From Sedimenticola thiotaurini (lineage in GTDB: Bacteria; Pseudomonadota; Gammaproteobacteria; Chromatiales; Chromatiaceae): a DNA stretch of 64,000 bases. The translations under genes were made by a program, and so were the position numbers. Within the stretch, counting starts at the first letter, position 1. Every line of letters starts with the position of its first letter. Of the stretch, positions 30,812-38,103 are shown in pieces. The notes under the pieces are model-generated. The model saw only the letters and a program-made list of their open reading frames with translations, ran no database searches and was not told where the DNA came from. The stretch is from the NCBI GenBank assembly GCA_007713595.1, contig VMRY01000003.1:186001-250000 (forward strand). The letters run 5' to 3'.

Positions 30812-30841
30812 TTGACTTGTTAATGATAATCATTATCATTA
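30812..30841 (+). promoter_or_regulatory. Fur-controlled promoter with perfect Fur box
   Basis: TTGACT at 30812-30817 and TATCAT at 30834-30839 form a -35/-10 pair with a 16-base spacer. A perfect 10-1-10 inverted repeat at 30821-30841, TAATGATAAT and ATTATCATTA around a central C, matches the Fur operator consensus (GATAATGATAATCATTATC) and covers the -10 box. Iron-loaded Fur would block RNA polymerase here. Confidence 0.9.
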
Positions 30842-30870
30842 GTAGAAAGACGACTAGACGGAGAAAAAAC

Positions 30871-31089
30871 ATGCGATGCGTCATTGATGCCTGGCTGGAA
30901 CGGCGGGACCCCTGCTTGCGCCTGCTTGATGCTGAAGCAGGTCAAGAGATCCTACGTTGTGGCGCTGGTTGGATAATACCGCTGCTGGAGAGCGGCGAAC
31001 TCTCTCTGGATGATATCCAGGACGAGGGCTTGAGCTTTTCCGAGAGACTGGGGCTCTCCCTTGAGAGGCACGCAACATGTGCGATCTGA
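30871..31089 (+). CDS. Small Fur-regulated protein of unknown function
   Basis: 72 residues from the ATG at 30871; an in-frame ATG at 30817 lies inside the promoter and is rejected. GGAGAAAAAAC precedes the start. The sequence is acidic and cysteine-bearing (MRCVIDAWLERRDPCLRLLD, then EILRCGAGW, then an acidic helix LLESGELSLDDIQDEGLSF, and C70 near the end) with no signal peptide and no membrane helix. I do not recognise the family. The Fur box on its promoter implies expression in iron starvation. It overlaps the next small gene by 13 bases. Confidence 0.6.
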   Translation: MRCVIDAWLERRDPCLRLLDAEAGQEILRCGAGWIIPLLESGELSLDDIQDEGLSFSERLGLSLERHATCAI

Positions 31090-31376
31090 CCAAGAAACCT
31101 TTTGTGCCACCCGCACCGAAGCCCGCCTGCCGATTAAAAATCTGGGAGGTGGAGCGAAGCTACCACTGCACAGTTCCGGTCTCTCCAGCTTTGCCCGCGA
31201 ATAGACCCAACTGGCACAACCTGAGAGATCTGCAACCAATGGCTAATGGCAGCGCAGATTTCCATCGTGACAATCTGCAGATAAATCGGGGCCAACTCTG
31301 GCCTTTTTCCAGTGGTCTGATACTCGCCACCGCCGCCGCGGGAGCACTTTTGATGGGCCTCATCCGCCTGGCCTGA
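31077..31376 (+). CDS. Small protein with C-terminal membrane helix, coupled to the Fur-boxed gene
   Basis: 99 residues, starting inside the end of the upstream small gene behind GAGAGG. The first third (MCDLTKKPFVPPAPKPACRL then KIWEVERSYHC) recalls, from memory, the N-terminus of DUF2325-type proteins, but the expected continuation is missing after YHC and a Pro/Asn-rich stretch follows. The last 25 residues, PFSSGLILATAAAGALLMGL onward, are one membrane helix. An internal ATG at 31239 could start a 45-residue peptide by itself. Either a real small membrane protein or the remnant of a longer gene. Confidence 0.45.
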   Translation: MCDLTKKPFVPPAPKPACRLKIWEVERSYHCTVPVSPALPANRPNWHNLRDLQPMANGSADFHRDNLQINRGQLWPFSSGLILATAAAGALLMGLIRLA

Positions 31377-31395
31377 CAGACCACCACTTAATGTG

Positions 31396-31410
31396 ATAAT
31401 GTAACATTAT
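31396..31410. promoter_or_regulatory. 7-1-7 palindrome beside the Zur-type site
   Basis: ATAATGT-A-ACATTAT is a perfect inverted repeat immediately upstream of the Zur-type site, and AACATT-ATAA-AATGTT (31403-31418) bridges the two. It may be a second, weaker dimer site. Confidence 0.4.
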
Positions 31411-31433
31411 AAAATGTTATACTATAACAATTA
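31411..31433 (+). promoter_or_regulatory. Zur operator candidate
   Basis: The core TGTTATA-C-TATAACA (31415-31429) is a perfect 7-1-7 palindrome. The 23-base window agrees at 20 positions with the proteobacterial Zur consensus (core GTTATAnTATAAC flanked by AAAT/ATTT). A TATACT -10-like box (31418-31423) lies inside it. Zur with zinc would repress plus-strand transcription toward the 38-residue peptide gene and the porin. Confidence 0.7.
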
Positions 31434-31574
31434 GAGCCATTAGTAGGGGATAGCCTGAATAAGACCACCATCAGCCTTGCGCTGATCCCACTGAGAGGCT
31501 AAGGCCTGTCCGCCTTTGCCAAAGAGCACTCTGATAGCACGACCAATTAACACGGAAAACGATCGGAAATCATT

Positions 31575-31691
31575 ATGAAAAATGCAGTCAATGACCACTT
31601 TAATTGCCGGTCACCCAGCTATACCTCGGGCCTGATTCTGTCCACACTGATTACAGCCGGCATTCTACTGACCGGGCTGTGTAGCTTCTAA
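31575..31691 (+). CDS. 38-residue membrane peptide downstream of the Zur-type site
   Basis: MKNAVNDHFNCRSPSY followed by a hydrophobic segment, TSGLILSTLITAGILLTGL, and CSF at the end: one membrane helix and a short polar N-terminus with two cysteines overall. The ribosome site (CGGAAATC) is weak, so expression is uncertain. The membrane segment resembles the C-terminus of the 99-residue protein 200 bases upstream (SGLIL-T-AG-LL-GL pattern). It lies between the Zur-type operator and the porin with no terminator between. Confidence 0.4.
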   Translation: MKNAVNDHFNCRSPSYTSGLILSTLITAGILLTGLCSF

Positions 31692-31797
31692 TCCGCAAAA
31701 TAACCCCTCCATCAATGAGAACAATTGTCCAATGATAGCGGCGATTCTGCGACTTATTCTTTAACCATTATTTACAACATACACACAAGGGGAACAC

Positions 31798-32889
31798 GTG
31801 AAAAAGCGCACGCTAGCACTCTCACTACTGACCATTTTGGCTCCACCCATAGCCAGTGCGGACAACCTTTCAGACGCCTTCAAGAATGGCACCGTGAGTG
31901 GTGACCTGAATCTTTTCTATAAAGAGATCGATAACCAGACCACTGCCGACAGCGGTTATGGCACCGGATACCTTGGCCTGAAATACGAAACGGCGCCCCT
32001 GAACGGCCTTCAGCTCGGCCTCGCCTTCCGTCACGGCAGTGAGATTGATGAGGATAATTCGGGTGATTCGGATGAGGGTGTGGGCACCCTCGTGACGGAG
32101 GCCTATATCAGTTATCAAGGTGATCAGTTTGGTGCCAAATTGGGTCGTCAGGAGATCGATCAGGAATGGATCGGCGATTTCCATGAGGCGATCACCTTTA
32201 CTACCAGTGCCCTGCCCAATACCGAGCTGAGCGGTGGTTACAGCCGCAGTAAGGCGGCAGCGGATGAAGACGACCTACAGCACAGTTTCAGCGACATCAG
32301 CGATGATGGCGCCTACTTTCTGGATGCCAAGATAATCCCGATGGAGGGGCTGACACTCAATCCGTACTACATCCATGAGGATGAAATATACAGCGGTCTT
32401 GGCCTTAAGGTTGACCTGGAGCAAGCCAACGGTCTGGGCCTAACCGCCCATTACGCGGCCTCCGATGTGGACGTGACCGGTGAGAGTGATGGTGACATCC
32501 TGCACCTGGAAGTGCGCGGCACCCTGGGTGCGGTTGCACTGAAAGGCGGCTACATAACCACCGACAAGCAGGGTGGCGTAGGCCATTTCGATGACCTGGG
32601 TGACAATATTAAACCGTTCGAGGAAGGTAACCAGGTGTATGCCGCTGACGCTGACACCTGGTACCTGGGTGCGGAGGCAGAGTGGGGACCAGTAACTCTG
32701 GGGCTGCTATTAGGTGAAACGGACTACGCCGGTAATGCGGATGAGCAGGAGTTGAATTTGACCCTGAACTGGGATCTCTCCTCTGTCGCTGACAACCTGA
32801 GTCTGGGTATGGTGTACGCCGACATCGAAGCTAATGCGAGCAGCGATGACTACGAAAAGTTCACCCTGATGCTCAATTACGGATTCTGA
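31798..32889 (+). CDS. Outer-membrane porin
   Basis: 363 residues from a GTG at 31798 behind AAGGGGA. A signal peptide (about 1-21, ending IASA) is followed by alternating amphipathic strands, many Asp/Glu-rich loops, and a C-terminal phenylalanine (LMLNYGF) needed for beta-barrel insertion. The overall look is of the Opr/MOMP-like 16-strand porins, not a TonB receptor. The very acidic loops would suit cation passage. The upstream region carries a Zur-type operator, so a role in zinc or divalent-cation entry in zinc starvation is inferred. A terminator follows. Confidence 0.85.
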   Translation: MKKRTLALSLLTILAPPIASADNLSDAFKNGTVSGDLNLFYKEIDNQTTADSGYGTGYLGLKYETAPLNGLQLGLAFRHGSEIDEDNSGDSDEGVGTLVTEAYISYQGDQFGAKLGRQEIDQEWIGDFHEAITFTTSALPNTELSGGYSRSKAAADEDDLQHSFSDISDDGAYFLDAKIIPMEGLTLNPYYIHEDEIYSGLGLKVDLEQANGLGLTAHYAASDVDVTGESDGDILHLEVRGTLGAVALKGGYITTDKQGGVGHFDDLGDNIKPFEEGNQVYAADADTWYLGAEAEWGPVTLGLLLGETDYAGNADEQELNLTLNWDLSSVADNLSLGMVYADIEANASSDDYEKFTLMLNYGF

Positions 32890-32891
32890 CC

Positions 32892-32934
32892 GAGCAAAAA
32901 ACCCAGCTACGTGTCGTAGCTGTGTTTTTTGCTC
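32892..32934. terminator. Bidirectional terminator, porin/hemE
   Basis: GAGCAAAAAAC and GTTTTTTGCTC flank an inner stem CAGCTACG/CGTAGCTG, giving a long hairpin with A- and T-runs on both sides between the convergent porin and hemE genes. Confidence 0.85.
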
Positions 32935-37873: not shown

Positions 37874-37947
37874 TTTCCCAACCATTCGTTAACATCTTGC
37901 CTACTGATCCATTATTTCTAAATAAGACCAAACAATTAATAGTACGA

Positions 37948-37966
37948 ATGATAACGATTCTTATTT
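37948..37966 (-). promoter_or_regulatory. Fur box upstream of the FTR1 operon
   Basis: On the minus strand this reads AATAAGAATCGTTATCATT, a good match to the Fur operator with the 7-1-7 arrangement, 75-93 bases upstream of the first gene of the iron operon. Confidence 0.8.
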
Positions 37967-38103
37967 GGTAAATCAAATGCTTTTGAATGATTGAGGGAGA
38001 ACTGCATACAGCGAGCTATTCAGGGTAGATATGCGGAGGAGGTGAATGGAAAATTCAGAGCAAACCTGAAGAAGCCTGTTTAGAACATAAAACCTCTGGA
38101 CAC

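Follow-up and report, generated by a model that had tools for sequence, protein, structure and literature searches.

A porin operon of Sedimenticola thiotaurini with a Fur-type promoter and a predicted, lineage-specific Zur-controlled promoter

The window analysed here is a stretch of 64,000 nucleotides from Sedimenticola thiotaurini and belongs to a genome of 3.86 Mb in 162 contigs (G000). It carries a short operon which ends in a porin gene and contains the remains of another gene. The features of this locus are the following, in window coordinates.

30812-30843, plus strand: Fur-type promoter TTGACT-16-TATCAT with the Fur box GTTAATGATAATCATTATC at 30819-30837; a second register at 30825-30843 overlaps.
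30871-31089, plus strand: PA4570-like protein of 72 aa, first gene of the operon (NF050178, E 4e-11, 43 bits, below the cut-off of 100).
31077-31169, plus strand: start of a DUF2325 gene, whose first 31 codons are all that is left of the gene's start; a ~400-aa homologue (PF10087) occupies the same place in relatives.
31172-31246, plus strand: DUF2325 tail remnant 1, SSGLSSFARE, stop, then TQLAQPERSATNG, by comparison with the relatives' ends IPLRSSGLSAFAKE.
31239-31376, plus strand: small membrane peptide 1, 45 aa, ending in SSGLILATAAAGALLMGLIRLA, with a core resembling the relatives' small peptides.
31373-31400, plus strand: promoter-like CTGACA-16-GATAAT with an extended -10 TG, overlapping Zur operator A; 10 of 12 positions match, and function is not implied by the match alone.
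31388-31410, no strand assigned: predicted Zur operator A, core TGTGATAATGTAACA at 31392-31406 with 2 mismatches, profile score 26.0.
31411-31433, no strand assigned: predicted Zur operator B, the site originally noted, core TGTTATACTATAACA at 31415-31429, full site AAAATGTTATACTATAACAATTA, profile score 31.7.
31446-31484, plus strand: what may remain of the start of a lost gene for a secreted protein, GGGGATAGCCTG followed by N K T T I S L A L (a weak assignment).
31485-31550, plus strand: DUF2325 tail remnant 2, IPLRG, stop, GLSAFAKEHSDSTTN, stop, by comparison with the relatives' DUF2325 ends.
31575-31691, plus strand: small membrane peptide 2, 38 aa, with a homologue in the corresponding position in every one of the eight relatives.
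31798-32889, plus strand: Opr-family porin, 363 aa, GTG start (NF033922 274.1 bits, cut-off 100; NF033923 219, cut-off 150; PF13609 56 bits).
32904-32922, plus strand: terminator-like stem 3′ of the porin, from a stem scan.

An earlier, sequence-only reading of this DNA had started from operator B and omitted the Fur box at 30819-30837, the DUF2325 remnants and small membrane peptide 1. It had described a 38-residue membrane peptide and an acidic porin behind the operator, and both are in place. The porin contains 62 D+E versus 15 K+R over 336 residues. Relatives without a Zur site are likewise acidic, so the acidity is no sign of zinc selectivity, and no zinc-binding motif was noticed on reading the sequence. 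In Pfam, the porin matches only Porin_4 and, below its cut-off, HP_OMP_2; neither the ZnuD-type plug nor the TonB barrel domain was found. A PDB sequence search with a porin profile returned nothing at E up to 1. An AlphaFold2 model from a four-sequence alignment draws 18 strands at an untrustworthy mean pLDDT of 36.9. Judging from dN/dS values of 0.04-0.17 where dS was estimable, the porin is under purifying selection. Small membrane peptide 2 has no Pfam or NCBIfam match; its fixed place between DUF2325 and the porin suggests that it may serve the porin operon as an envelope helper. Among 210 genomes of the order, 26 have a match to the Opr-porin family, and the nine above the cut-off all lie in the genus. 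At the 19 weaker loci (L129-L147), neither a Zur core at 2 mismatches nor a Fur box at 4 was found.

For comparison we used the Zur consensus GAAATGTTATANTATAACATTTC. Operator B, a palindrome of 23 bases, agrees with it at 20 of 23 positions and has an exact core, as had been claimed before; the case is stronger than stated, as operator A, absent from the earlier reading, sits 23 bp upstream as a second operator. Operator B holds the genome's sole exact core match. When as many as 2 mismatches are allowed, nine core matches appear versus seven for a reversed control pattern, so loose core matches by themselves carry no meaning. The count of exact cores in 369 gammaproteobacterial genomes is 31 (the window's included) versus 8 for the reversed control.

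A symmetrised Zur profile was derived from 25 sites other than these two: 19 exact cores that stand before genes judged Zur-type in other genomes, and six genus entries, which are znuA and zrg operators and include three from the window's own genome. Both window operators reach the level of these training sites, whose leave-one-out scores span 19.7-34.4; the best unrelated stretch in the 64-kb window scores 5.7. Since most training sites were picked by their exact core, the comparison favours exact cores. Operator A has no such core to help, yet it outscores, as does operator B, the same genome's zrg-like site (19.7) and znuA half-sites (22.7). The distance from the Zur site is ~140 bp to the 38-aa peptide and ~365 bp to the porin. 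A plus-strand scan found no terminator-like stem between operator B and the porin, so a transcript starting at the operator should extend to the porin.

The zur gene on which such control depends is present. The genome has four FUR-family genes, and one of them, L014:4138-4605, is the last gene of a znuA-znuC-znuB-zur operon (znuACB-zur). It scores 155.2 bits against PRK11639, slightly under the cut-off of 167 and far above its own Fur and PerR scores. Among PDB entries, its product best matches 7dh7, annotated as a Fur-family regulator, and E. coli Zur (4mtd, 1.9e-34); the protein carries two CxxC pairs. L021:3739-4185 encodes an ordinary Fur (198.5 bits, cut-off 146). Another FUR-family regulator, L016:7289-7846, is nearest to the Irr/PerR models (IrrA 112 bits, cut-off 150), here in a gammaproteobacterial host.

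The znuA gene is preceded by an overlapping double Zur operator, and a zrg-like operon has a 2-mismatch Zur site. Overlapping pairs of core matches of the znuA type occur in 9 of 9 genus genomes (the place before znuA was read in G000 and G005), and counterparts of the zrg-like operon with a site were read in G002, G006 and G008. The ZrgA of this operon scores 133 bits, clearly below the cut-off of 185; by reading, further genes encode an ABC ATPase, a permease and a DUF3299-like protein. The operon presumably also includes a DUF2946-like protein.

Outside the window's genome, exact-core loci were read in gammaproteobacteria at one locus per other genome with a match (n=23). According to translations that were read and partly checked with Pfam, 18 of them adjoin znu, zur, zrg, CobW, DUF1826 or ZnuD-type genes, 15 clearly and three less surely (L110, L113, L114); the remaining five (L099, L106, L107, L108, L115) do not fit Zur-type genes. 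By this comparison the exact core appears to be a good mark of Zur targets. Exact Zur cores precede TonB receptors in L104, L116 and L117.

One of the less sure loci deserves description. L110 (G494) has two exact Zur cores 22 bp apart (1501, 1523), before a minus-strand gene at 327-1478. Its product is a barrel-like, His/Asp-rich protein of 383 aa with no Pfam or NCBIfam match, and on the opposite side of the sites lie ABC-transporter ATPase and permease genes which read as znuC/znuB-like. This protein is a further candidate for an outer-membrane protein under Zur control outside the TonB-receptor class. A wider kind of such proteins did not emerge, as distant relatives occur in four other genomes among the 369 and none has a Zur site (up to 3 mismatches, within 1.5 kb).

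The earlier proposal of a route without a TonB receptor fits the genome. None of the five TonB-receptor genes found shares a contig with a Zur core, even when 2 mismatches are allowed; a weaker Zur site on one of their contigs is possible. Their best NCBIfam matches, all below cut-off, are to B12 (two), siderophore, TOL_0244-type and haemoglobin/transferrin models, and one of the five has a weak ZnuD match (35 bits, cut-off 950). A 15-base palindrome, TTCTATAGTATAGAA at L151:732-746, stands just before a TonB-receptor gene with TOL_0244 as its best match (below cut-off) and differs from the Zur core at four positions.

The operon can be compared with eight relatives from the same genus. The porin is present in all eight, with 67-81% identity over the stretch present; the named records with it all belong to Sedimenticola (S. 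selenatireducens BK-1 and two MAGs). The order is conserved in 8 of 8: Fur box, PA4570-like gene (72-97% identical proteins), DUF2325 (~400 aa), a peptide of 38-54 aa with one hydrophobic segment, and porin. The Fur box has 1 mismatch in 19 positions in the window and 2-5 at the same place in the relatives. DUF2325 is intact in seven of the eight, and ~172 codons are left in BK-1 (G002). On the opposite strand beyond the porin, the window encodes hemE, a P19-type iron transport protein, a NapH-like ferredoxin-type membrane protein and FTR1. Among the fetched stretches of the relatives, hemE is found in six (in G005 and G008 the contig stops within the porin), P19 in five (it is absent in G004 although the stretch reaches far enough) and FTR1 in two, with several stretches ending before reaching it. 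The Fur boxes, the conserved operon and the iron-gene neighbours make the ancestral operon look like an iron-starvation operon, and the relatives seem to switch the porin gene on in iron shortage. Before the P19/FTR1 operon, at 37880-38010, the window contains CGAATGATAACGATTCTTATT, which is like the relatives' Fur boxes and has more than 6 mismatches to the 19-base consensus.

DUF2325 proteins also stand behind Fur boxes elsewhere, both in genus relatives (L051-L057) and outside the genus (L065-L071). Of 22 outside-genus DUF2325 loci that were read, six have a clear Fur-like match upstream and three further ones (L079, L080, L085) a weaker match near the start; L073 has a 3-mismatch Zur-like match near the gene start. 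Some DUF2325 neighbours read as ferritin- or bacterioferritin-like genes. A role of DUF2325 in iron starvation is possible.

The Zur site is confined to one of the nine genus genomes. In none of the eight relatives does a Zur core of up to 3 mismatches precede the porin, and the sole match at these loci lies inside the porin coding region of L031. Allowing up to 4 mismatches in seven relatives (all except G002) gave three scattered matches, two in L051 and one in L057. The site is therefore not conserved before orthologues and is lineage-specific. Judged in this way, the window's porin resembles an iron-starvation porin that has come under Zur as well in this lineage.

The DNA around the operators carries traces of how this addition could have happened. 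The window keeps all parts of the genus operon except an intact DUF2325, and BK-1 lacks an intact copy likewise; no other DUF2325 protein of this type was found in the window's genome at E up to 1e-15. That both the DUF2325 tail and the small peptide occur twice points to an earlier tandem duplication of the DUF2325-peptide unit, possibly with a porin, followed by deletions. The DUF2325 start is in frame with small peptide 1, so that 31077-31376 forms an open frame of 99 aa, whose product could be a short protein with a membrane segment at its end. The stretch after the operators (GAATAAGACC..ATCAGCC) is present in BK-1 and the operators are absent there, which implies that the rearrangement predates the split of the two or has been transferred between them; the Zur part was apparently lost in BK-1. 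A DNA search of 210 order genomes for a donor of the inserted piece (31175-31470) found none: it gave eight short matches outside the own genome (20-47 bases), two of which (G044, G031) are Zur operators, before zrgA-like and DUF1826-like genes by reading.

Divergence is uneven along the porin. From DUF2325 tail 2 into the first part of the porin, window and BK-1 are 86-95% identical in DNA, with one 100-base stretch at 75%; over the remainder the identity is 60-79%, and BK-1 and G005 share 82-97% there. This mosaic look suggests recombination, not decisively, as dS is high or saturated and dN between two relatives is also higher C-terminally.

As we read it, an iron-starvation porin most likely acquired a further promoter under Zur repression by local duplication and deletion, and a shortage of either metal should raise the porin. 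We give a probability of roughly 0.6 to a metal-starvation porin operon with two promoters, an ancestral Fur-repressed one upstream and a second one covered by two Zur dimer sites before peptide and porin. The features from which this model is drawn can be read directly in the DNA: the predicted operators, zur, the znu and zrg-like operons with sites of their own, the Fur box, the relatives' operon and the marks of rearrangement. Promoter activity and repression we infer from them, and zinc passage through the porin from analogy with the mycobacterial porin MspD. The first promoter (P1) would be under Fur, ~950 bp before the porin, and the second (P2), the promoter-like CTGACA-16-GATAAT, under the two Zur sites ~390 bp before it. 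With zinc plentiful, zinc-loaded Zur would cover the -10 and start region of P2 and block it. In zinc shortage Zur would release P2, and peptide and porin would be made. Iron shortage would free P1, and the porin made from it would serve the iron importers whose genes are adjacent. The porin would raise the passive entry of small ions, and ZnuABC, Zrg or FTR1 would take them further. The strong double Zur landing site probably means that zinc shortage also induces the window's porin.

The earlier claim of a Zur-controlled zinc-entry route holds in its first part: zur, two operators and a conserved local regulon leave Zur control of the porin operon well supported in silico. Its second part, a putative zinc entry, has to be set against a Fur box without a Zur site in 8 of 8 relatives and the iron-gene neighbours. 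Several observations speak against the two-promoter model as a whole: the Zur site is confined to one of nine genus genomes and lies amid gene debris, the porin has iron genes and no zinc genes as neighbours, its acidity recurs in relatives lacking the Zur site, no zinc-binding motif was noticed in it, and zur and zrgA score under their NCBIfam cut-offs.

Zur control could be real while the porin serves mainly iron or small solutes in general, zinc shortage raising outer-membrane permeability as part of a joint metal response. The Fur box in the window and all eight relatives, together with hemE, P19 and FTR1 nearby, agrees with such a role, as do the Fur-box porins predicted in Geobacter and Desulfuromonas (PMC545781). 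Against it, a second, independent Zur promoter would be odd if zinc gained nothing, and PMC13098993 presents MspD as a porin that can matter for zinc when ZnuABC is missing. We regard this explanation as possible, with the odds somewhat against it.

The operators might also be a leftover from a gene, possibly another copy of the porin, that was deleted from between small peptide 1 and DUF2325 tail 2; the porin would then be run by Fur or by a promoter of its own and zinc would have little effect. The DUF2325 tails and small peptides flanking the Zur site would fit this, as would the lack of a Zur site in all eight relatives. The start-like stretch after operator B (31446-31484), whose like occurs without operators in BK-1, aligns in register with the porin ribosome site and start in 8 of 8 comparisons, which comprised seven relatives (G006 left out) and the window's own porin. 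Each alignment is weak, its score being reached by 12 to 70 of 500 shuffles in seven comparisons and by 300 in the remaining one; a lost porin at this place is hence conjectural. Both operators are moreover intact rather than decayed and outscore the znuA and zrg-like sites of the same genome, and with no stem on the plus strand a transcript should reach the surviving porin. We consider a leftover unlikely.

A chimeric assembly which joined a Zur promoter to the porin would account for an arrangement unique among nine genomes and for the mosaic look of the porin, but the locus lies inside a 577-kb contig of a genome that is 99.98% complete and 0.72% contaminated, and the independent presence of the post-operator stretch in BK-1 makes such an error very improbable. 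Binding of the palindrome by another regulator, or chance in an A+T-rich region where 2-mismatch matches hardly exceed the control (9 vs 7), is scarcely credible for an exact core with an adjacent second site and profile scores of 26-32 versus 5.7, the more so as exact cores mark Zur-type genes in other genomes.

The two-promoter model has partial precedents. In Mycobacterium smegmatis, the porin MspD is induced by zinc starvation and by zur deletion, and its loss raised the zinc need clearly only when znuABC was also missing (PMC7174638, PMC13098993). Like the window's porin, MspD is an outer-membrane porin and not a TonB receptor, and it is thought to feed ZnuABC (PMC7174638, PMC13098993). 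It differs in family and envelope (an Msp octamer), and the portions consulted mention no Fur control; the window's case is known from sequence alone. For Geobacter and Desulfuromonas, porins with Fur boxes were predicted (psp, and an OprB-type porin before feoAB; PMC545781). These too are predicted to take up metal under the control of a metal repressor, and one lies beside iron transport genes; they belong to other porin families and are placed under Fur only, with no Zur site described in the part of PMC545781 available.

Zur regulons with outer-membrane targets are themselves established: in many species these targets are TonB receptors, and ZnuD-type receptors and Zrg resemble the window's case in this respect (PMC6103462). 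The gene behind the window's operator, in contrast to the ZnuD-type receptors, is a passive porin. In Pseudomonas, expression of OprD is zinc-responsive as well, through CzcR in zinc excess and not Zur in shortage (PMC10393844). Zur-induced porins (MspD) and predicted Fur-box porins (Geobacter) are hence already known. In the accessible parts of the open-licence literature, neither a Zur-controlled gammaproteobacterial Opr porin nor a single porin operon under Fur and Zur made by rearrangement in one lineage came to light.

A bolder version of the two-promoter model sees rewiring in progress. The porin operon would have been duplicated in tandem, one copy would have acquired a Zur promoter, and loss of the genes in between would have set this promoter before the surviving porin, leaving one passive pore under both Fur and Zur. 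We offer this version only tentatively. The locus suggests that a metal regulon may gain a member by duplication and deletion, not by point mutation. If the rewiring is true, the operon would represent a Gram-negative, Zur-induced zinc entry route that works without TonB and also serves iron. How zinc crosses the outer membrane when no TonB receptor for zinc is evident has been little studied, and sister species, which carry this operon either with the zinc switch or lacking it, provide a natural comparison.
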